From positions 1 through 57,855 of the forward strand of contig DYJA01000037.1 in NCBI GenBank assembly GCA_020723345.1: a DNA stretch of 57,855 nt, given 5' to 3'. Positions 3,048-25,988 of the stretch are shown piece by piece (position 1 is the first letter of the stretch; each line of letters begins with the position of its first letter). A program made the translations under genes and the position numbers. Source of the stretch: Candidatus Aquidulcis sp. (GTDB lineage Bacteria; Chloroflexota; Anaerolineae; UBA4142). The notes under the pieces were generated by a model. The model worked only from the letters and a program-made list of their open reading frames with translations, had not been told where the DNA came from and did no database searches.

Positions 3048-3809
3048 TCACAAACGCCGCAAATGAAATCCGCCGTCCACATCAATCACTTGACCGGTCG
3101 AGTACGGCAGCAGATCTTCCGCAATCGCGACGACCGCGCGCGCAACATCGTCGGGCTGACCCCAGCGACGAATCGGAAAAATTCCTTCGGCGATCATCTG
3201 GTCGTACTTGGCTTGAACCACGCTCGTCAAATCAGTTGCGATGACGCCGGGTCGAATTTCGTATACGTTGATGCTGAACTCCGACAAGCGATCCGCGAAC
3301 AGCGTCGTCATCATCGCGACGCCCGCTTTGGAAATGCAATACTCGGCGCGATTCGGACTGCTGGCGTACGAACTGAGCGAGCCGATGTTGACGATTTTCG
3401 CGTGAGTGATTTTGAGTTCGATCATTTTGCGCGCGACGAGTTGCGTCAGAAAAAACGGACCCTTGAGATTCGTCGCCATCACCTCGTCGTAACTCTGCTC
3501 GCTCATTTCGAGCATATCCGTCCGCACGCGCGGCGCCATCCCGGCATTGTTCACGAGCAGATCGACGCGCCCGAAATGCTCAAGCGTCTGCGCGACGAGG
3601 CGCGCTCTGTCTTGTGTAACCGAAACGTCGGCTTGGACGATGACGCCGCGCGCGCCGGCTTGCTCGACGAGGCGCAGCGCGTCGTTTGCCGCGTCCGCGT
3701 TGCCGCGATAGTTGACGACGATGTTCCAACCGCGCGCCGCGAGCGCGAGCGCGATGCCGCGCCCAATCCCGCGCGCCGCGCCGGTGACCAATGAAACTCT
3801 TTCGCCCAT
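3048..3809 (-). CDS. SDR-family short-chain dehydrogenase/reductase
   Basis: A 253-residue classical SDR, the normal family length. TGAARGIG at 9-16 is the Rossmann glycine motif, NNAG is at 87-90, and the catalytic set is Ser in IGSLSS (144-147), Tyr157 and Lys161 (YCISK). The C-terminal [12 protein letters not shown] is typical of the 3-oxoacyl-ACP reductase/sugar dehydrogenase branch. It should catalyse NAD(P)-dependent oxidation of a hydroxyl group. Its neighbours are GH88, Gfo/Idh dehydrogenases and an enolase-superfamily enzyme, so a sugar-acid or polyol substrate is more likely than a fatty acyl one (inference). Confidence 0.9.
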
Positions 3810-3900
3810 GAGTAACTGCTTTCCTCACGCTCAACGGAAAATTGATCCGCGAATAACGCGAATCTTCGCGAATCTACAGTTGGAAAGATTTCGAGTCGGT

Positions 3901-3979
3901 GTCAACGAATCTTCAACGAATAAACGAATGACTTGCCTCGGCGGGAGAAATTCGTTTATTCGTTCCTTCATTCGTTGAC
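3901..3979. repeat. Hairpin repeat, CGAATGA/ACGAATAAACGAA family
   Basis: GTCAACGAATC and ACGAATAAACGAATGA units on the left are mirrored by TTCGTTTATTCGTT and TTCATTCGTTGAC on the right. The 3' end of the GH88 gene (stop at 3913) lies inside it, so the last ~20 residues of that protein are repeat-encoded. Confidence 0.8.
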
Positions 3980-5061
3980 GCCTTGCTCAACGCTTCCAGG
4001 AAAAAATATTCGCCCCACATCACGCTTTCGTCCACGCCGAGTCCTTTGCGCTGATGGTAGCATCCGTGCTTCAGAATCCCTTCCCAGCCCGGCGTCTCAA
4101 TCGCGAGAAATTCCGGCTCGGTCAGCGTGTCCAAGATTCTCAGCGCGTAATCGCGGTACAAGCGCGCGCGCGCCGGATCGCCGGTGAGGCGCGCGAGATT
4201 CCACATTCCGCTCGCGGCAATCGCGGCGGCGGAACTTTCGTACGACTGTTGCGGCTGCGCTTCGTCCCAATCATTCGGCGGGACGCCGGGCGCGGGCGTG
4301 CGTTCGATGTAGAAATTCGCGCACGCTTCGGCAGTTTGCAAAAAGCGCGCGTCGCGCGTGAACGAATACGCCGTGCCGAAACCGTAGAGCGCCCAGGACA
4401 AACCGCGCGCCCACGACGAATCGTCGCGCCAGCCCTGATGCGTACTTTGCCGGAGAAATTCGCCGGTCTCCGTGTTGAAGATCCCTTCGTGCGACGTGCT
4501 GCCGTCGCCGCGCACGAGGTATTTGCGCGTCGTCAAGCAATGCTGCGTCGCTTTGCGGAGCAAGTCCGCGTCGTTGGTTTGCCGCGCGGCGTAAAAAATG
4601 ATACCGACGTTCATCATAATGTCAATGAACAAACTTTCGTCGGCGACGAACGAGCGGAGGTATTGCCCTTTCTCTTTGAAACGCAAGCCCATCGTGCGCC
4701 CGGCGTCGATTACGACTTGATTGATTGCTGGATCGCCGGTCAAATCGTACCAGCGTTTGTACGTTGACCAGAAAAGAAAACCCAAGTCATGCACCGCGCG
4801 ATCCGTCTTGCGATGCTCGATCAAGCGCGAATAGTGTCCCGCTTTCTCGCGCCAGTACGCGTCGCCGGTGTGTTCGTGCAGCAACCACAACTGCCCGCCG
4901 AGAAAACCTTCGCACCAATTCGTCCACGCCTCGCCGCCGTGTTTCCATTTTCCGTTTTGCGTGTACATCGGAAAATAATCCGGGTACGTTTCGACGAGGT
5001 GGCGCAGTTGTTTCCCGGCAAAGTCGAAGGTGTGATTGATTTTTGAAGAGAGGTTTGACAT
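3913..5061 (-). CDS. Glycoside hydrolase family 88-type unsaturated uronyl hydrolase
   Basis: A 382-residue (alpha/alpha)6-barrel protein. WTNWCEGFLGGQLWLLHEHTG (about 46-66), HDLGFLFWSTY at 91-101 and DDSSWARGLSWALYGFG match GH88; the Asp of HDLGF and that of DDSSWARG are the expected catalytic acids, and YESSAAAIAASG is the conserved late helix. GH88 enzymes remove 4,5-unsaturated uronic acids from oligosaccharides produced by lyases. No signal peptide is seen, so it is probably cytoplasmic. ATG 5061 is chosen because upstream in-frame codons fall in a GTGATGC repeat and the next gene. The C-terminal tail after the barrel is repeat-encoded. No polysaccharide lyase is in the window, so oligosaccharides may be imported. 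Confidence 0.85.
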   Translation of the reverse strand: MSNLSSKINHTFDFAGKQLRHLVETYPDYFPMYTQNGKWKHGGEAWTNWCEGFLGGQLWLLHEHTGDAYWREKAGHYSRLIEHRKTDRAVHDLGFLFWSTYKRWYDLTGDPAINQVVIDAGRTMGLRFKEKGQYLRSFVADESLFIDIMMNVGIIFYAARQTNDADLLRKATQHCLTTRKYLVRGDGSTSHEGIFNTETGEFLRQSTHQGWRDDSSWARGLSWALYGFGTAYSFTRDARFLQTAEACANFYIERTPAPGVPPNDWDEAQPQQSYESSAAAIAASGMWNLARLTGDPARARLYRDYALRILDTLTEPEFLAIETPGWEGILKHGCYHQRKGLGVDESVMWGEYFFLEALSKASTNEGTNKRISPAEASHSFIR

Positions 5062-5069
5062 TTGGAAAT

Positions 5070-5099
5070 CCGTGATACGTGATGCGTGATGCGTGAAAT
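5070..5099. repeat. GTGATGC heptamer array, left flank of the DUF2726 gene
   Basis: Three consecutive GTGATnC units end in GTGAAAT. It is inverted relative to the CGCATCA array at 5735-5769, so the two arrays bracket the DUF2726 gene like terminal inverted repeats. Confidence 0.8.
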
Positions 5100-5105
5100 C
5101 GCAAA

Positions 5106-5675
5106 TTACGGCGGTGGCTTGGCGGGAGATTGAATGTGGTGACAGACACGTTCTCCAATGAAATTTTTCGGATACGCTTGTTGCACTCGATGTCGCCATA
5201 TTCTTAATCCAATGTCCGCGCATACTTGATCTTTGAATTCATCGCGCTCACGATGTTCGTACTTGTCGTGACTACTGTCGTCCAATTCGATTACCAACAA
5301 CGGTTTATATGTACCCTTCTCACAAAGTAGAAAATCGAAATGCTTACAATGGAGTTGGTTGCTGTGATACTTCCGATTCTCTGGCTCGTTCGCCAACCAG
5401 ATGACATCAGCCAACCTCACTTTGGCAAATACTGCATATTGCCCTCCAATGTCTTCCAGCAGTGCTTTGAAGAAAACGCGCTCGCGATAGGTGAACAAGG
5501 ATTTGCTCAGACGGTATTCCGGTGGGACAGCCGCACCCATTCCCAACTCCGGCTCTCTGATTGCTGTTGGTGGAGCGGGTGTCTCAGCTCCAGGTGGTGC
5601 AACTGGAACAGCACCCTCATCGCCCCAGAGGAATTTCCAAAACCGTTTAATGAGTGAAAGAATCTTCTGCAACAT
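5106..5675 (-). CDS. DUF2726 protein, PD-(D/E)XK nuclease-like fold
   Basis: A 189-residue protein. It starts with a basic/hydrophobic segment (LQKILSLIKRFWKFLWG), then a Pro/Ala linker, then a DUF2726 domain from about residue 55: FFKALLEDI, VFAKVRLADVIWL, the acidic core HFDFLLCEKG followed by LLVIELDDSSH, and GLRIWRHR. The Asp of FDFLL and the ExD-like IELDD resemble a PD-(D/E)XK nuclease core, as proposed for this family. ATG 5675 is chosen because AAAGGA lies about 9 nt upstream; a longer frame to 5732 lacks such a site. It is out of place in the sugar cluster and is flanked by inverted GTGATGC arrays, which suggests a separately acquired cassette (inference). Confidence 0.8.
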   Translation of the reverse strand: MLQKILSLIKRFWKFLWGDEGAVPVAPPGAETPAPPTAIREPELGMGAAVPPEYRLSKSLFTYRERVFFKALLEDIGGQYAVFAKVRLADVIWLANEPENRKYHSNQLHCKHFDFLLCEKGTYKPLLVIELDDSSHDKYEHRERDEFKDQVCADIGLRIWRHRVQQAYPKNFIGERVCHHIQSPAKPPP

Positions 5676-5734
5676 GTACCGCGATCCTTTCCATTGAGCA
5701 ACGAGGAGCCCACAAGGACTTCTTGTTGTCAATC

Positions 5735-5804
5735 TTCACGCATCACGCATCACGCATCACGTTTCACGTCCCCCCGTCACCCGTCACTTGCCACCCGCCA
5801 CCCG
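5735..5804. repeat. CGCATCA heptamer array plus GTCACCC/GCCACCC array
   Basis: Positions 5735-5769 are the inverse partner of the array at 5070-5099. Immediately after come CCCGTCA/GCCACCC heptamers (5770-5804), which form the stop region of the adjacent Gfo/Idh gene. Confidence 0.75.
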
Positions 5805-6875
5805 CACCGCCTGCATCTCCGCCTGAATCGCCAACTCCATCACCTTGAACGCGTGCGCTTGCGTCATCGCGTTTTCGGTGCGATTCAGACAATCGAGAAT
5901 CAGTTGACCAAAGTACGGATAGCCAATTTTGCCGTGTACCGGAATGTGATGCTCGCCTTTGTGATCGACGAGATAAACGTGATCGGGTTCCGCGTCGCGC
6001 GCGACGTCGAGATATTTGCGGAGTTCGATGTAGCCGTCGGTGCCGAGAATGAACGTGCGTCCGTCGCCCCACGAGCCGAGTCCATCCGGCGTAAACCAGT
6101 CCACGCGAAAATATTGCGTCGCGCCGTTGTCCGCGACGAGCGTCGCATCGCCGAAATCTTCCAAGCCGGGACGATCGGGGTGGTGATAATTGCCGACCTT
6201 GCTGTGCAAGACGCGCGCGTCCTTCGCTCCGGCGTAAAACAAAAATTGCTCGATCTGATGACTGCCGATGTCGCACAAAATTCCGCCGTAGCGTTCTTTG
6301 ACAAAGAACCACGGCGGGCGCGTCGGCAAACTGATCCGATGCGGTCCTAGCCCGACGACTTGAATCACGCGACCGATCGCGCCGTTCTGGATCAATTCTC
6401 CGGCGTACATCCCTGCTTCCGAATGCAGGCGTTCAGAATAGTACGCCGCGTACTTGCGTCCCGTCGCTTGCGCTTTGGCGCGCGCCGCGTCGAGTTGCTC
6501 CAGCGTCGTGAGAAGCGGCTTGTCGGAAAAATAATCTTTGCCCGCGTCCATCGCGCGCAGACCGAGCGTGCAGCGATCCGCCGGAATCGCCGCGCCGGCG
6601 ACGAGCCGAATCGTCGCGTCGTCGAAAATTTCTTGCTCCGACCGCGCGACCTTGACGCCCGGGTACTTGAGCCGGAACGCTTCGACTTGTTTTGGATCCG
6701 GATCGTACACCCACACGAGTTCCGCGCCGGCTTCGATCAAGCCGTTGCACATGCCGTAAATGTGTCCGTGATCCAAGCCGATTGCCGCAAAGCGAAACTC
6801 GCCCGTGCCGACGACGACGTTCGCTTTACCCTGCGGCGCATAGTTCATTCCATTTGCTTTTTGAAACTCGGTCAT
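5784..6875 (-). CDS. Gfo/Idh/MocA family oxidoreductase
   Basis: A 363-residue NAD(P)-binding dehydrogenase-like protein. The Rossmann strand begins near residue 27 (FRFAAIGLDHGHIYG, where GLDHGH replaces the canonical GxGxxG), ending in VYDPDP. The EKP motif position reads SDKPL, and the C-terminal alpha/beta domain carries GGILCDIGSHQIEQFLFY, the equivalent of the usual GGxLxDxGxHxxD. The altered nucleotide-binding loop and D-K-P triad mark a divergent subfamily. SD GGAGG lies ahead of ATG 6875. The gene ends inside a repeat. It probably oxidises or isomerises a sugar derivative together with the adjacent paralogue. Confidence 0.85.
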   Translation of the reverse strand: MTEFQKANGMNYAPQGKANVVVGTGEFRFAAIGLDHGHIYGMCNGLIEAGAELVWVYDPDPKQVEAFRLKYPGVKVARSEQEIFDDATIRLVAGAAIPADRCTLGLRAMDAGKDYFSDKPLLTTLEQLDAARAKAQATGRKYAAYYSERLHSEAGMYAGELIQNGAIGRVIQVVGLGPHRISLPTRPPWFFVKERYGGILCDIGSHQIEQFLFYAGAKDARVLHSKVGNYHHPDRPGLEDFGDATLVADNGATQYFRVDWFTPDGLGSWGDGRTFILGTDGYIELRKYLDVARDAEPDHVYLVDHKGEHHIPVHGKIGYPYFGQLILDCLNRTENAMTQAHAFKVMELAIQAEMQAVRVAGGK

Positions 6876-6943
6876 GTTTGCCTCCAGGTGATGCGCGATG
6901 TGCGAGGAGCAGTATTACGACTCTCCCGGAAAAACTCAATGTT

Positions 6944-7065
6944 GAACCGCGAAGACGCAAAGAACGCAAAGTTTTCTATGGTTTTCTTCGCGTTCTTCGC
7001 GTCTTTGCGGTAAGAAAGGTTCTTTTCAGCAACGTCGTATCACGCATCACGTTTCACGCATCACT
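6944..7065. repeat. Hairpin CGCAAAG/CTTTGCG family followed by GCATCAC array
   Basis: AACCGCGAAGACGCAAAG with AACGCAAAG at 6944-6970 is mirrored by CTTCGCGTTCTTCGCG and CTTTGCGGT at 6986-7011. A second array of ATCACGC/TTCACGC heptamers runs 7036-7065 to the end of the next gene. The gap holds nothing else I recognise. Confidence 0.8.
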
Positions 7066-8224
7066 CTTTTTGCTCGCTCGCCGCGCCGACGAGGATCGCG
7101 CTGTCCGCGAATCTTTCCACGCTCTTGGTTTTTTCGTGAAAGCGCGGCGCGTGCTTCAACCTTCCTTCGCGCGTGTACATCGGATGATCCGGCGCGAGCG
7201 GCAGCGTCACGCGCGCGCCGCTGAACCCCGACGCGTAAATCGCGGTCACCAGTTCGATTGTATTCCGTCCGGCGGATCCGTCAATAAACAAGGGTTCCTT
7301 GCCTTCAATCGCGCCAAGCACATTTGCGACTTGTCCGGCGTGCAGTTCGTGCGGCAACTCCGGCAACTGATCGTAGCGCGCCTGAATTTCGTTTTCGAGC
7401 GCGGGGTTCGCTTCCGGGAAACCGTTCTCGCGTTGATTCGACGCTTTGACTCGCCACGGCACGCCAACCGTCGCGCGTGCGCCTTGAATCAGAAATTGTT
7501 GCGGCTCGCCGTGATGCACCAGCGACGCGTTAATTTGCCCGATGCCGCCGTTCTCGTAGAACAACACCGTCGTCGAAAAATCTTCGACCTCCGAGTTGTC
7601 GTGCGCGACGTTCGCGATGATGGCGTGTAGCGATTTCGGCATGCCGACGATCCAGTGAAACAAATCGATCTGATGAACCGCGTGATTCAGCGTGCAGCCG
7701 CCGCCTTCTTTTTCCCACGTGCCGCGCCACCAGAGATCGTAATAATTGCGCCCGCGCCACCAAAACGAATCGATCTGCGCGTGGACGATTTTGCCGATGA
7801 GACCCGCCGCGACGATCTGCTCCAATTTCATCATCGGCGTGCGATAACGATTTTGCGCGACGACCGACAACAGCCGCTGGTTCGCGCGCGCGGCGGCGAT
7901 CATCGCGTCGCACTCGTGCAAACTCGTCGCCATCGGCTTTTCGACGAGAACATGCTTGCCGGAGTTCAGCGCGTCAATCGTGATCGGCGCGTGCGCGAAC
8001 GGCGGCGCGCAAATCGCGACCAGATCGAAATTGCCATCGTTCAGCGCGGCGCGATGATCGGCGTAAACTTTGGCGGCGAGTCCGTAGCGTCGTTTTTTCT
8101 CTTCCGCTTTCTCTGGGTGAATGTCGACGAGCGCGGCGATTTGGCAGCGCGTCGTGAAATTTAGAAATGCCTTGATGTGCGTCTCGGCGATAGAACCGGT
8201 ACCAATAATGGCGACACGAATCAT
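7061..8224 (-). CDS. Gfo/Idh/MocA family dehydrogenase
   Basis: A 387-residue, standard two-domain member. The N-terminal IRVAIIGTGSIAETHIKAF has the GxGxxA nucleotide loop at about 7-12, VLVEKPMATS is the conserved EKP motif (catalytic Lys), and GGGCTLNHAVHQIDLFHWI is the C-terminal G-x-x-x-x-H-x-x-D segment with the active-site His. It should catalyse NAD(P)-dependent oxidation of a cyclic sugar, polyol or acid. It is 9 nt from the cupin gene and in the same operon as the paralogue at 5784-6875. Confidence 0.92.
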   Translation of the reverse strand: MIRVAIIGTGSIAETHIKAFLNFTTRCQIAALVDIHPEKAEEKKRRYGLAAKVYADHRAALNDGNFDLVAICAPPFAHAPITIDALNSGKHVLVEKPMATSLHECDAMIAAARANQRLLSVVAQNRYRTPMMKLEQIVAAGLIGKIVHAQIDSFWWRGRNYYDLWWRGTWEKEGGGCTLNHAVHQIDLFHWIVGMPKSLHAIIANVAHDNSEVEDFSTTVLFYENGGIGQINASLVHHGEPQQFLIQGARATVGVPWRVKASNQRENGFPEANPALENEIQARYDQLPELPHELHAGQVANVLGAIEGKEPLFIDGSAGRNTIELVTAIYASGFSGARVTLPLAPDHPMYTREGRLKHAPRFHEKTKSVERFADSAILVGAASEQKE

Positions 8225-8586: not shown

Positions 8587-8613
8587 GTAGGACAAGTTGG
8601 CAACTTGTCCAAC
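8587..8613. repeat. Palindrome GTAGGACAAGTTGG/CAACTTGTCC
   Basis: An imperfect palindrome between the cupin and ATPase genes, reaching the ATPase stop codon. It is related in layout to the GTAGGACAAATTTG palindromes at 30450 and 41023. Confidence 0.7.
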
Positions 8614-9389
8614 TAATCCATCGCCAACACGCCCGCCGATTTGAACAGATCGCGAATGTGCCCGGCATAGTCGTTGAATTTGGGCGGCAGTTTGTCCAGG
8701 CGGCGCGGGCGCGGCAAATCAATGTCCATGATTTCGACGATGCGCCCGGGACGCGGACTCATCACGACGACGCGGTCGGCGAGCAGAACGGCTTCCGGAA
8801 TCGAGTGCGTGATGTGGAGCGCGGTCTTGCGCTTTTCCATCCACAAATGTTGAATGTCCATCGAAATCTGTTCGCGCGTGAGCGCGTCCAGCGCGCCGAA
8901 CGGCTCGTCCATCAACAAGAGCGGCGGATCGTGGACGAGCGCGCGGCAAATCGAAACGCGCTGGCGCATCCCGCCGGATAATTCGTACGGCTTTTTCTTT
9001 TCGAATCCTTCGAGTCCGGTTTTCTTGAGCAGTTCCAACGCGACCGGCTGAAACGCGGCGCGATCCATTTTGCGAATGTCAATTTGAATCATCACGTTCG
9101 ACAGCACGTCGCGCCAGTCGAGCATAATCGAATCTTGAAAGACGATGCCGACGTCGGTCTGCGGTTTGTCGACGCGTTGTCCGCCAATCGTGATCGCGCC
9201 GGAGGAATGTGGGATGAGACCGGCGAGCATTTTGAGAATCGTCGTCTTGCCGCAGCCGCTGGGACCGACAATCGCGACAAATTCCGATTGCTTGATGTCG
9301 AAGGTCGCGTCGAGCACCGCTTCGACCGCGCCGTTTTTCGTTTTGTAAATTTTGTTGACGTTTTGAAAACGAATGAATGGTTCGGGCAT
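8613..9389 (-). CDS. ABC transporter ATP-binding protein (NitT/TauT type)
   Basis: A 258-residue ABC ATPase. Walker A is GPSGCGKTT (about 42-50), the Q-loop is near VFQDSIMLDWRDVL, the signature is LSGGMRQRVSICRAL, Walker B is LLLMDEPFGALD, and the switch His is in HITHSIPEAVLLADRVVVM. The GMRQR signature and the DVLSNV region match the SsuB/TauB/NitD group. It should energise the permease at 10723-11544 with the lipoprotein at 9442-10605. SD AGGAAGG precedes ATG 9389. Confidence 0.93.
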   Translation of the reverse strand: MPEPFIRFQNVNKIYKTKNGAVEAVLDATFDIKQSEFVAIVGPSGCGKTTILKMLAGLIPHSSGAITIGGQRVDKPQTDVGIVFQDSIMLDWRDVLSNVMIQIDIRKMDRAAFQPVALELLKKTGLEGFEKKKPYELSGGMRQRVSICRALVHDPPLLLMDEPFGALDALTREQISMDIQHLWMEKRKTALHITHSIPEAVLLADRVVVMSPRPGRIVEIMDIDLPRPRRLDKLPPKFNDYAGHIRDLFKSAGVLAMD

Positions 9390-9403: not shown

Positions 9404-9432
9404 GTAGGGGCGCAATTGAATTGCGCCCCTAC
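9404..9432. repeat. Perfect REP palindrome GTAGGGGCGCAATTG + inverse
   Basis: A 29-nt perfect palindrome between the ATPase and the substrate-binding protein genes. The same sequence occurs repeatedly around the RAYT transposase at 24824-25453, about 15 kb away, which links this copy to that element family. Confidence 0.9.
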
Positions 9433-9441
9433 AACATCACA

Positions 9442-10605
9442 CTACTTCTTCGGCAGGTACGGCGCGTCGGACAGGAAATCGTTCGTGAAGAAGACTTTGA
9501 CGTCGGGCTTGGGATCCTTCATCTGCGCAAAGTTGACGAGCAAGTCCTGGGAATCTTTCCAGTCGGCTTCGTCGGAAATGCCCAGCGCTTTGCCTTTGGT
9601 GCGCGGCGATTGCATGATCGTCATTGTGCCGTCAATTTCCAACTTGGCGATTTCTTCGGTGAACGCGGTCGCATACTTGATGAAAATCTTTGCCGCTTCG
9701 GCGCGATTTTCCGAGGTGTACTGCCAGCCGCGTTGCGTCGCGCGCAAGAACTTGCGGAGGTTTTCCTGATTCTTGGCGTCCTTGATCCACTCGTTGTTGA
9801 CGACGATCGCGCTGCTGAGCGTGGTCGTGCCGTTCAAATCGAACAAGCGCGTCCAGCCCATCTTGACGCCGGTCTGCAATTGCATGCGCGGACCTTGATC
9901 CATAAAATAACCGAGCAGCGCGTCGGCTTGCTTGTTGAGGACGGCTTGCTCTTTCGCTTGCGGGTTCGCCGTCATCACGAATTGCACATCGTCCAACTTC
10001 ATACCTTCTTTACCGAGGAACGCGGTAAAGATCGCGAGACTGGCGTCGCCCTGGGTAATCGCGATGCGCGCGCCCTTGAGTTCCGAAACCTTGGTGGGAC
10101 GCGCGGCATCGGCGCGATAGATGAACGCCATCGGCGATTGCTGAAGCATCACGGCGACGGCTTTGATCGGCATACCGCCGACGACGCGTTGAATCATCGT
10201 CGCGGAATCGATGTAGGCGACCGGGCTTTGGTTGTTGGCGACGAGACCGGCGACAACACCCGAGCCGCCGCCTTCCTGAATTTCGACGTCGAGTCCTTCT
10301 TCTTTGTAGAAACCTTTTTCGTACGCGACGAAGAAACCGGCGTGTTCGCCGTACAGCGTCCAGTTCAAGCGGAACGGGAATTTGACTAACGGCGCGGCAG
10401 TCGGCGCGACCGTTGGTTTAGGCGCATCCGTCGGCTTGGGCGCGTCGGTGGGCTTGGGCGCGGCTGTCGGTTGCGCGGCTGCAGCGGTGGGCTTGGGCGC
10501 GTCGGTTGGTTTGGGTAACGGCGTTGGCGTCGGTGCGGGCGCGCACGCGGCAAGCACGGCGAGCAGCACAACGGCGAGCAAAGCGAAACGAACGAACGTC
10601 TTCAT
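9442..10605 (-). CDS. ABC transporter substrate-binding lipoprotein (NMT1/THI5-like)
   Basis: A 387-residue protein. Residues 1-21 are a lipoprotein signal ending in LAAC (lipobox Cys21). A linker of PTPTPLPKPTDAPKPT-like repeats (about 22-75) precedes a periplasmic-binding type 2 domain that begins FRLNWTLYGEHAGFFVAYEK, the NMT1/THI5 signature start; GFYKEEGLDVEIQEGGGSG follows. THI5-like proteins bind pyrimidine precursors, riboflavin-type or sulfonate/nitrate-like ligands; no TPP riboswitch was seen, so thiamine precursor uptake is not supported. SD GAGGAG precedes ATG 10605. It delivers ligand to the adjacent permease/ATPase. Confidence 0.92.
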   Translation of the reverse strand: MKTFVRFALLAVVLLAVLAACAPAPTPTPLPKPTDAPKPTAAAAQPTAAPKPTDAPKPTDAPKPTVAPTAAPLVKFPFRLNWTLYGEHAGFFVAYEKGFYKEEGLDVEIQEGGGSGVVAGLVANNQSPVAYIDSATMIQRVVGGMPIKAVAVMLQQSPMAFIYRADAARPTKVSELKGARIAITQGDASLAIFTAFLGKEGMKLDDVQFVMTANPQAKEQAVLNKQADALLGYFMDQGPRMQLQTGVKMGWTRLFDLNGTTTLSSAIVVNNEWIKDAKNQENLRKFLRATQRGWQYTSENRAEAAKIFIKYATAFTEEIAKLEIDGTMTIMQSPRTKGKALGISDEADWKDSQDLLVNFAQMKDPKPDVKVFFTNDFLSDAPYLPKK

Positions 10606-23338: not shown

Positions 23339-23722
23339 ATGGACAACACACGAGCATTGAATCGCAAGTACGAAACAATCGCGTGGGGCGCGTTTTTCAT
23401 TTGGCTGGGCGTCACGAATTTGTTCCGCGGACTGCCCGATGGCACGGGCGCGGTTGGCATCGGCGTTATTTTGCTCGGCTTGAATCTGGCGCGGTACGCG
23501 AGCAAAATTCCAACGAGCGGCGTCACGCTCTTTCTGGGCGCGCTCGCGCTCATCCTCGGCGCGTTCGATGTGGCGCGCGCGGTGTTGCGATTGGAAACTG
23601 ATTTGCCGTTCTTTCCGTTGCTGTTGATCGCGATTGGGATGGTGTGGTTGTTGCGCGGTGTCAACGAATCACGAACGAATAAACGAATGGTGTCAACAAA
23701 TCGCGAACGAATAAACGAATGA
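23339..23722 (+). CDS. Small membrane protein (LiaI/DUF5668-like layout)
   Basis: A 127-residue protein with about four hydrophobic helices (WGAFFIWLGVTNLF, VGIGVILLGLNLARY, LFLGALALILGAFDVARAVL, FPLLLIAIGMVWLLRG). This resembles the short transmembrane segments that precede cell-envelope stress sensors, but no partner is present. The final ~17 residues (ESRTNKRMVSTNRERINE type) are encoded by the CGAATAAACGAATG repeat, so the native end probably lies near residue 109. Confidence 0.65.
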   Translation: MDNTRALNRKYETIAWGAFFIWLGVTNLFRGLPDGTGAVGIGVILLGLNLARYASKIPTSGVTLFLGALALILGAFDVARAVLRLETDLPFFPLLLIAIGMVWLLRGVNESRTNKRMVSTNRERINE

Positions 23723-23781
23723 CGTGTCTGTCATTGCGGGCGTCCTGAGCGGAGTTGAAGGATGCCTCCTTGCAATGACAT
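23661..23781. repeat. CGAACGAATAAACGAATG direct copies, then a TGTCATTGC/GCAATGACA palindrome
   Basis: Two copies of GTGTCAACnAATC-GCGAACGAATAAACGAATG lie at 23661-23721. A second element then has outer arms TGTCATTGC and GCAATGACA around CCTGAGCGGAGTTGAAGGAT, about 23731-23781. It reaches to within 15 nt of the DUF4062 start. Confidence 0.75.
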
Positions 23782-24439
23782 CTTGGTGCGGATGAAAAAA
23801 GTCTTTCTCAGTTCCACAGCAAGAGATTTGCAAGAATATCGCGACGCAGTGTTCGCGGCGATTCAGGCGTGCGACGATTTGCGTTGCGTCCGCATGGAAG
23901 ATTTTGGCGCGCGCGCGGAAATGGCGGATGAGTTTTGCCGCGCGAAGGTCGCCGAGTGCGATGTGTTTGTCGGAATCGTCGGGCATTATTTTGGGAACAG
24001 TCCAAAGGGTTCGGACAAATCGTACACACAGCAAGAGTACGACGCGGCAGTCGAAACGGACAGACCGCGCTTGATGTTCATTGCGCCTGACGATTTCCCG
24101 ATTCCCGCGAATCTCGTCGAGAACGCGTCGAAACGCAAACGCCAGCGCGAGTTCCGCGCGCGCGTCAATGGCGTGCTGCGCGCGGAATTCAAATCGCCGC
24201 AGGATTTGGCGACGAAGGTTGTGACTGCAATTCGCAATTGGGAACGCGAGCAGGAACAAGTTAGCATGGAGCAACTACGCGCGCAATATCTCGCGCATGT
24301 CATCGGCGAATGGGAAAAGATTCGGCTGATTGGTTTTTCGCACGCGGGTAAGGCGGTTGACGACCCGAAACTGGAGCAGGTGTTTGTGCCGTTGCGCGTG
24401 GAGAGTGTCGCGAGCAGGGAGCGTTTCGAGGAAATCGGT

Positions 24440-24520
24440 AGGGATGCAATTCCATTGCATCCAGAGGGCGCAATCGGTATGGGCGCGGGTAAGGGCGCAA
24501 TTGAATTGCGCCCCTACGAG
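24440..24520. repeat. Two REP palindromes within the DUF4062-NACHT linker
   Basis: GTAGGGATGCAATTCCATTG followed by CATCC, then AAGGGCGCAATTGAATTGCG followed by CCCCTAC. These are the same palindromes as in the array at 25449-25722. Confidence 0.85.
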
Positions 24521-24663
24521 TACGAACCGCGCACGAAATTGGCGGAGAAAATTGACGTGAACACCGCGTTGCAAGTCGCACGGAAAGCGGTCGTGCTGGG
24601 CGCGCCTGGCGCGGGCAAATCTACGTTGTTGCAATGGCTCGCGCTGTCGTTTGCGCGCGGCGC

Positions 24664-24803
24664 GGTAGGGGCGCAGGTAAGGGCGCAATTGAATTGCGCC
24701 CCTACGCGCGCCCCTACCGAATCGCGCGTGCCGTTGCGAAGAACGCAATGGAATTGCGTCCCTACGCTTGATGCAATTGAATTGCATCCCTACCAATTGC
24801 GCC
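24664..24803. repeat. REP palindrome cluster upstream of the RAYT gene
   Basis: GTAGGGGCGC, AAGGGCGCAATTGAATTGCG and CCCCTAC units are followed by GCAATGGAATTGCGTCCC and GATGCAATTGAATTGCATCC. The cluster marks the break in the NACHT domain and precedes the transposase start. Confidence 0.85.
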
Positions 24804-24823
24804 CTGATAATCAGGAGAGAATC

Positions 24824-25453
24824 ATGCCATACAATCCAGACCAACATCATCGCCGTTCAATGCGCCTGCAAAATTGGGATTACGCCAGCGCGGGCGCGTA
24901 TTTTGTCACGATTTGCGTGGAGAATCGCGAATGTGTTTTCGGTGAAATCGTGGATGCCGAAATGCGATTGAACGCGTTGGGCAATATCGTCGCGGAATAT
25001 TGGCAAAACCTGCCGCATCTTTTTCCTGCAATCGTATTGGACGCGTTTGTGGTGATGCCGAATCATGTACATTTCGCTGTGTGGTTGAATCCGCCTGAGG
25101 ACGCGCGCGTAGGGGCGCAATTGAATTGCGCCCCAACCAATTGCGCCCCAACCAATTGCGCCCCTACAAACCGCGCCTCTACAACCACCACGACAACCGA
25201 ATCCCCCATCGGCAAACGATTCACGGTGGACAAACAACGTCCTACGTTGGGGCAGGTGGTTCGCGCGCTCAAGGCAGCAACCACGCGATTGATTCGACAA
25301 TCGGGCAGCGCTGGATTCGCATGGCAGCGCAATTATTACGAACACATCGTCCGCGACGAACGCGAATTGGAACGCATTCGCAAATACATCCTCGACAACC
25401 CTGCGAATTGGGCGGGGGACGAGGAAAATCCAAACAAGGCGCATGCATCGTAG
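24824..25453 (+). CDS. REP-associated tyrosine transposase (RAYT), Y1/HUH superfamily
   Basis: A 209-residue transposase from ATG 24824 (AGGAGA 6 nt upstream). LQNWDYASAGAYFVTICVENR is the RAYT start, VVMPNHVHFAVWL holds the HUH metal motif (H-V-H), LGQVVRALKAATTRLI is the middle helix, and AWQRNYYEHIVRDERELERI with YILDNPANW is the C-terminal tyrosine/NPxxW region. Such enzymes mobilise REP palindromes by single-strand transfer. After the HUH motif, a REP cluster (25108-25185) is inserted in frame and encodes GAQLNCAPTNCAPT-like repeats. The gene is flanked on both sides by REP palindromes. It probably is, or recently was, active. Confidence 0.93.
   Translation: MPYNPDQHHRRSMRLQNWDYASAGAYFVTICVENRECVFGEIVDAEMRLNALGNIVAEYWQNLPHLFPAIVLDAFVVMPNHVHFAVWLNPPEDARVGAQLNCAPTNCAPTNCAPTNRASTTTTTTESPIGKRFTVDKQRPTLGQVVRALKAATTRLIRQSGSAGFAWQRNYYEHIVRDERELERIRKYILDNPANWAGDEENPNKAHAS
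25108..25185. repeat. REP cluster in frame inside the RAYT gene
   Basis: One perfect GTAGGGGCGCAATTG palindrome is followed by two CAACCAATTGCGCCCC half-units. It is read as repeated NCAPT residues between the HUH motif and the central helix. Confidence 0.85.
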
Positions 25454-25722
25454 GGATGCAATTCTATTGCATCCCGCGCAGGGACGCGTATCGTAGGGAT
25501 GCAATTCTATTGCATCCCGCGTAAGGACGCAATTCTATTGCATCCAGCGCAGGGACGCGTATCGTAGGGATGCAATTCTATTGCATCCCGCGTAAGGGCG
25601 CAATTCCATTGCATCCAGCGCAGGGACGCGTATCGTAGGGATGCAATTCTATTGCATCCCGCGTAAGGGCGCAATTGAATTGCGCCCCTACACGCCCCTA
25701 CACACCCCTACGCGCCCCTACC
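25449..25722. repeat. REP palindrome array with three tandem 71-nt units
   Basis: The array starts with a GTAGGGATGCAATTC palindrome (25449-25474). Three tandem copies of a 71-nt unit then begin at 25477, 25548 and 25619, each CGCAGGGACGCGTATC plus a GTAGGGATGCAATTC palindrome plus a second variant palindrome. The last variant is the GCGCAATTGAATTGCGCC type. A run of degenerate CGCCCCTACAC units closes it at about 25722. It sits directly 3' of the RAYT gene in the pattern of a BIME. Confidence 0.92.
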
Positions 25723-25736
25723 ACAGGATATCGAAC

Positions 25737-25988
25737 ATGCCCAAACCAAAACAAAAATCATCTGAAGACCAATCCTTTGAATCCCTCTTCCGCGAACTCG
25801 ACGCCACCGTCGCCAAACTGGAAGCGGGCGACCTCTCGCTCGACGAATCGCTCGCGCTCTTCCAGCGCGGCATGGAACTCGCCAAGCAATGCGGCGTCAT
25901 GCTGGACGCGGCGGAACTCCGCATCAAAGAACTCGTCCCGCGCGGCGAGGAATTGGCGGCGGAGGATTTTGAAGAGGAGGAAGCGTAG
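25737..25988 (+). CDS. xseB: Exodeoxyribonuclease VII small subunit
   Basis: An 83-residue protein. SFESLFRELDATVAKLEAGD LSLDESLALFQRGMELAKQC is the XseB helical hairpin consensus (F-E-x-L-x-x-L-x-x-I/V-V-x-x-L-E-x-G-x-L-x-L-x-E-S). It pairs with the XseA catalytic subunit to degrade single-stranded DNA. XseA is not in the window. ATG 25737 follows AGGA; upstream codons are REP sequence. Immediate upstream sequence is the REP array, so its promoter may have been replaced. Confidence 0.93.
   Translation: MPKPKQKSSEDQSFESLFRELDATVAKLEAGDLSLDESLALFQRGMELAKQCGVMLDAAELRIKELVPRGEELAAEDFEEEEA

Follow-up and report, generated by a model that had tools for sequence, protein, structure and literature searches.

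Organization of the locus

Within the window, as we term the whole 57,855-nt stretch of DNA analysed here, an intact reading frame coding for a RAYT (TnpA_REP) transposase lies amidst a dense cluster of REP palindromes, preceded by the remnant of a DUF4062-NACHT gene and followed by a tandem REP array and xseB (Table 1). The first-pass annotation had described the interval 24440-25722 as a RAYT with its palindromes; the RAYT does lie inside these bounds, but its coding sequence is narrower, and 24440-24740 mostly belongs to the truncated DUF4062/NACHT gene.

Table 1. Coordinates of the genes and repeats discussed in the text
Feature	Position	Strand	Evidence or remarks
ABC ATPase gene beside the 9404-9432 REP	8613-9389	-	named by eye from the ORF translation
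Dispersed double-foot REP GTAGGGGCGCAATTGAATTGCGCCCCTAC, 29 nt	9404-9432		perfect except for the odd centre base
Substrate-binding protein gene, other side of the 9404-9432 REP	9442-10605	-	named by eye from the ORF translation
DUF4062-NACHT gene remnant	23762-24740	+	Pfam; ends early in the NACHT domain, in-frame fusion to the RAYT
REP, variant ATGCAATTCCATTGCAT	24438-24466		in frame within the DUF4062-NACHT remnant
REP	24489-24517		in frame within the DUF4062-NACHT remnant
REP inserted in the host DUF4062-NACHT gene	24677-24705		host DNA again at 24718-24740
REP-like palindrome 5' of the RAYT	24737-24765		
REP-like palindrome directly 5' of the RAYT	24765-24793		
AGGAG, likely RAYT ribosome binding site	24813-24817	+	sequence
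RAYT / TnpA_REP CDS, 209 aa	24824-25453	+	Pfam Y1_Tnp, profile, fold, invariant motifs
RAYT HUH His codons	25064-25066 and 25070-25072	+	H81-V-H83
REP within the RAYT reading frame, HUH-Tyr loop	25109-25137		encodes VGAQLNCAPT
RAYT catalytic Tyr188 codon	25385-25387	+	Y-x3-NP, Y188-ILD-N192-P193
Downstream tandem REP array	25450-25691		TRF
xseB, exonuclease VII small subunit	25737-25988	+	Pfam Exonuc_VII_S 4.4e-19; right-hand synteny anchor with G008

The window contains 14 REP-like palindromes that fit GCAATNNNATTGC: one lies at 9404-9432 and the other 13 lie at 24438-25691. Under an order-2 Markov model of its sequence, a mean of 0.14 and a maximum of 2 would be expected. Their consensus, GTAGGGGCGCAATTGAATTGCGCCCCTAC, is of the double-foot kind, with a GTAG foot at one end and its complement at the other (GTAG...CTAC). 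The downstream array (TRF period 71, 3.3 copies, 95% matches) opens with a truncated 43-nt unit at 25450, which is followed by 71-nt units at 25493, 25564 and 25635. The units at 25493 and 25564, both complete, are identical at 69 of 71 positions; the unit at 25635 matches over its first 42 nt, has the other REP variant as its second palindrome, and agrees at 52 of 71 positions overall. Growth of the array via local tandem duplication is supported by this arrangement, and its two middle units look young. The first GTAG of the array supplies the TAG stop codon of the RAYT gene (25451-25453), a role of the GTAG foot already known for other GTAG REPs (PMC3733652).

Several claims of the first-pass annotation can be judged against this inventory. 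Its RAYT flanked by palindromes is upheld, with copies both before and after the coding sequence, as is its perfect copy at 9404-9432. The REP units that it placed in the transposase's own frame come down to a single in-frame copy, at 25109-25137. The three tandem 71-nt copies prove to be two complete units plus one whose second palindrome is the other variant, besides the truncated unit, and the near-absence of divergence is limited to the two middle units, as the unit at 25635 shares only 52 of 71 positions.

A second tandem REP array with a period of 71 and an unrelated spacer is present elsewhere in the same genome (G000; L191 1533-1703, G000:C70:24735-24899). We considered a fixed copying unit based on the period shared by the arrays at window position 25493 and G000:C70:24735, and rejected it on account of the unrelated spacers and because the periods of other REP-bearing arrays in the loci range from 27 to 147. 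The window also has, at 23657-23720, a tandem pair of 32-nt units, GGTGTCAACRAATCRCGAACGAATAAACGAAT, at the end of a 127-aa ORF located 5' of the DUF4062 gene.

Affinities of the transposase

The 209-aa product matches Pfam Y1_Tnp (5e-07) and the NCBIfam model NF047646 REP_Tyr_transpos (1.2e-16), the latter with 60.9 bits, under a cutoff of 80 that is a name-giving threshold rather than a biological definition, and in two stretches with an internal insert between them. While a single-sequence phmmer search of PDB with the RAYT returned no match, a profile of the protein and its relatives recovered the E. coli TnpArep structure 4er8 (3.8e-06), and a Foldseek search with the AlphaFold model retrieved the IS608 TnpA, the ISDra2 TnpA and 4er8, each with a probability of 1.00. 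Across 48 sequences, comprising the RAYT and its relatives, H81, H83, Tyr188 and the NP after Tyr188 are invariant, and the Y-x3-NP motif formed by the last of these is the class 2 signature. An IS200/IS605 insertion sequence was ruled out, as Y-x3-NP is not the class 1 Y-x3-Q and there are no near-identical gene copies; the closest other RAYT copy within the same genome is 51% identical. With Pfam, the profile match, the fold and the HUH/Tyr motifs in agreement on the gene originally called a RAYT, and with motif, fold and flanking dispersed GTAG REPs all fitting, we conclude that it is a TnpA_REP of the class 2 Y1 HUH type.

Placed by described features rather than by the tree or models of Quentin et al., the protein is closest to subclass 2.4 of TnpA_REP (PMC6006769), with which it has in common the Y-x3-NP motif, flanking GT[AG]G...C[TC]AC double-foot REPs (found at 9404 and at many genome sites), and an in-frame REP between HUH and Y (25109-25137). 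The present system differs from the described subclass in its occurrence in Chloroflexota, in its position within what is left of a DUF4062-NACHT-HEAT gene, and in its downstream tandem array. Its predicted HUH Y1 fold is that of the REP-hairpin recognisers typified by the TnpA_REP of E. coli (4ER8) and those of Stenotrophomonas and Marinomonas (PMC8266576). In contrast to this overall likeness, identity to the E. coli protein is ~15% in the fold alignment, and the E. coli REPs are bulged whereas those studied here are long perfect palindromes.

An empty site in a related genus

The reading frame of the DUF4062-NACHT remnant continues into the RAYT without a stop (23762-25453, 563 aa), and the remnant retains the DUF4062 domain (residues 13-96) and a Walker A motif near residues 276-305. 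In G008, a member of the same family but of a different genus, an intact, syntenic gene for a 1119-aa DUF4062-NACHT-HEAT protein lies directly 5' of xseB. At the DNA level the remnant is 82% identical to this gene over 23797-24660 and 100% identical over 24718-24740, between two REPs. About 2.4 kb of the DUF4062-NACHT-HEAT gene is gone from the window, with the block of REPs, RAYT and array in its place, and synteny with G008 holds on both sides of this block, with the gene order unchanged to xseB and beyond. Judged by these alignments, the G008 locus is the syntenic empty site for the RAYT block. The 1119-aa protein of G008 (G008:C56, L241, gene 3807-7163, minus strand) resembles STAND-type defence proteins, and PADLOC returned weak matches only for it.

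Such a junction in a draft genome of 132 contigs, with palindromes and a tandem array right at it, might be thought an artefact of assembly at repeats. We hold this to be very unlikely, as the G008 synteny continues on both sides to xseB and beyond and the unique host stretch at 24718-24740 lies between REPs in the correct order. A rather more plausible alternative, to which we give somewhat less than an even chance, is that REP-REP recombination or deletion joined REPs already present in the DUF4062-NACHT gene with those around a RAYT elsewhere, with no transposition of the block. Consistent with this, several REPs are present in the remaining host gene (24438-24793), exchange would be possible through the REPs that flank the RAYT, and 2.4 kb of the host gene is missing; against it, neither a reciprocal product nor a donor locus was found, and REPs blur the borders. 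The junction may have originated by block insertion with loss of host DNA or by REP-REP recombination, the data being compatible with both; the latter would alter only the final step of the explanation that we favor below and leave the identity of the element unaffected.

Dispersal of the palindromes and its age

The pattern GGGNNGCAATNNNATTGCNNCC is found at 35 distinct sites in the 6.34-Mb draft genome, 10 on this contig and 25 on other contigs, and a reversed control pattern at none genome-wide. At least seven of the dispersed copies are read in frame as part of Pfam-supported genes. The products of genes with an in-frame REP include MutS, an Lhr-like helicase, an amine oxidase, a PD40 propeller, a TPR protein and another DUF4062 protein, and in a beta-galactosidase (LacZ) the palindrome sits between two domains. 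These counts bear on the possibility that the tandem array and the scattered copies are ordinary transcription terminators or hairpins of another kind, with an origin independent of the RAYT. Hairpins 3' of genes are common and the array does lie between two genes, but the recurrence of the same sequence at 35 sites, its GTAG/CTAC feet, the many copies inside reading frames and the cognate relationship of the palindrome to the RAYT render this reading extremely improbable.

The genome codes for three RAYT subfamilies (C53; C70 and C106; C4), each with its own distinct palindrome in and around it: GGGGCGAAGCATTTTTCGGTTTG... for the C70 and C106 genes, of which the C106 copy is broken, and GTAGAGACG...CGTCTCTAC for that of C4. 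The use of a different palindrome by each subfamily is in keeping with the published rule of a separate REP family for every tnpA_REP (PMC6006769). The decayed RAYT at G000:C106 ~24145-24551 (L014/L208) has an internal palindrome, is missing its middle part and adjoins a TPR-like gene, as recognized by eye; the C70 RAYT also adjoins a TPR-like gene, and that of the window lies within the DUF4062-NACHT gene.

In the sister species G001 the REP palindrome occurs at nine sites, and three REP insertions are at orthologous positions with matching flanks, which implies that dispersal began before the species split. A cognate RAYT was not found in G001, a 93% complete MAG, the best RAYT of which is 48% identical and has a different internal palindrome. 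The nearest RAYTs come from other families of the class (64% identical in G058 and 65% in G043) and have the same palindrome inside, and in G043 this internal copy is the sole match of the REP pattern in the genome. Based on the presence of the same internal palindrome in RAYTs of 64-65% identity from other families, the sequences suggest that gene and REP may have been transferred together.

With respect to the first-pass annotation, the genome-wide count confirms the proposed dispersal; the absence of further copies, which it had named as a finding that would speak against it, is contradicted by the 25 sites outside this contig. Its recent amplification may apply to the array but not to the dispersal, which is old, given the three insertions orthologous in G001. 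The other adverse finding that it had named, palindromes in genomes without any RAYT, is encountered in G001, where nine sites but no cognate RAYT were found, the best RAYT being the 48%-identical one; the G001 palindromes are best read as reflecting loss of the RAYT or an assembly gap, rather than as a refutation.

A model for the spread of the element

Based on the anatomy, homology and dispersal that we observed, together with the empty site, the shared old insertions and the in-frame insertions, we propose, with a probability of roughly 0.9, that the locus is a REPtron, i.e. a RAYT with its cognate double-foot GTAG REPs, closest to subclass 2.4, that spreads along the following lines. Characterized TnpA_REP proteins work on folded single-stranded REPs, with a variable dependence on GTAG, and cut between C and T, once also between C and A (PMC8266576). 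By analogy, the RAYT is most likely to bind single-stranded DNA at the REP hairpin, with the GTAG foot as a guide, and Tyr188 would cut between C and T at a nearby site, the CTAC 3' foot being a potential supplier of the CT. The strand transfer that we envisage would rejoin the ends into a single-stranded target, whereby REPs would be copied or moved. Insertion would probably be denser near the RAYT gene, and such a cis preference would account for the REPs around it and in its own frame. An in-frame REP would be harmless in a disordered loop, the palindrome being open in two of three frames, and insertions would survive only between genes and in tolerant loops. As for the order of events, the REP/RAYT block would have come into the DUF4062-NACHT-HEAT gene, with ~2.4 kb of that gene being lost, and the array would have been enlarged by tandem duplication.

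The palindrome family of this REPtron, GCAATTGAATTGC, may be compared with the GTAG-tagged REPs that Di Nocera et al. 2013 (PMC3733652) described in 24 families, which it resembles in the GTAG foot, in intragenic copies including those in DNA repair genes, in TAG stops and in tandem groups; what goes beyond that work is that the same MutS and Lhr loops bear different palindromes in different genera. The Rickettsia palindromic elements (RPE) are likewise found in frame within host genes, but they are CGTC-tagged and without a transposase gene (PMC3733652), whereas a cognate RAYT is present here. A RAYT/REP system of known type is well supported, to which we add comparative evidence, namely the empty-site comparison, the three insertions shared with the sister species and the MutS/Lhr loops with differing palindromes, with no new mechanism proven. 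The locus bears on how REPs spread and on whether RAYT genes move, and is a good test case for the copying of REPs into coding sequence by a RAYT and for the importance of the internal copy.

The internal palindrome across RAYT relatives

Quentin et al. 2018 (PMC6006769) reported in-frame REP insertions as predominant in, and unique to, subclass 2.4, and the internal-REP pattern is therefore already known; our additions are counts of internal palindromes, a tree test and a cognate own-flank test. In a sample of 97 intact relatives, all distinct and spread over many phyla, a strong palindrome occurs in the linker between HUH and Y of 65 RAYTs (starting at a median of 33 nt past HUH), as against 3.7% of codon-shuffled linkers, 5/97 N-terminal segments and 0/97 C-terminal segments. 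A near-identical copy was seen in the RAYT's own flanks, which contig ends shortened in some loci, for 24 of these 65, compared with 1.2% between loci. The palindrome type follows the RAYT tree, with 36 changes versus 48.5 when labels are shuffled (minimum 44). Every one of the 85 GTAGGGGC feet in the linkers falls in one of the two open frames; the TAG frame has none, as insertions that bring in a stop would not survive. In the AlphaFold model the pLDDT is below 50 over most of residues 101-135, the stretch with the REP-encoded peptide, and the REP-bearing loop is probably disordered.

It is conceivable that the internal REP is not just tolerated but kept by selection as a working part, be it a seed by which gene and REP stay together after transfer or a hairpin through which protein or RNA enzymes would regulate the RAYT's own mRNA. 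Its recurrence in the same loop in many phyla, with arms that are often perfect in proteins ~45% identical, the tracking of the RAYT tree by palindrome type, the lack of a close copy seen in the flanks of over half of the palindrome-bearing RAYTs, and the solitary copy of G043 all point in this direction. Nevertheless, 32 of the 97 are without a palindrome of such strength, and cis-biased insertion coupled with survival in a tolerant loop gives the same pattern, the low-confidence, probably disordered HUH-Tyr loop being the obvious tolerant place. In light of this, we consider selection for the internal copy rather unlikely and retain the REPtron reading with insertion biased in cis.

Palindromes in loops of MutS and the Lhr-like helicase

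In the MutS loop before the RSLFG motif, G000 has the window REP palindrome and G003 has GGGCGGGGTCATCCCGCCC; other inserts are found elsewhere (L243-L250). Similarly, four different palindromes occupy the same loop of the Lhr-like helicase in G000, G001, G008 and G007 (L257-L264). At this Lhr site, G001 and G007 have shared borders and a shared foot, with palindromes separated by four point changes, two of which form a compensatory pair; these point changes rule out a swap of the palindrome core between the two, and, with the common borders and foot, indicate that theirs is probably one old insertion. In G000 a new REP comes after a partial older foot, and the palindrome of G008 is a different one. 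A class-wide survey recovered the Lhr loop motif in 12 of 27 loci. Of these 12, four have a palindrome, one of them (L276) without REP feet, as opposed to none of 60 control segments.

Tolerant loops that collect insertions would explain the pattern in MutS and Lhr. We also raise, as a speculation that we think has the odds against it, the idea that certain protein loops are long-lived REP sites at which the palindrome is replaced by that of the active RAYT, while the RAYT's own site keeps the cognate palindrome; if true, the RAYT gene would carry its own REP along as a built-in seed. The MutS of G000 carries two other inserts as well, one tandem and of the TPTPALPRSAGEG type, the other GKGEAF...ANASPL.
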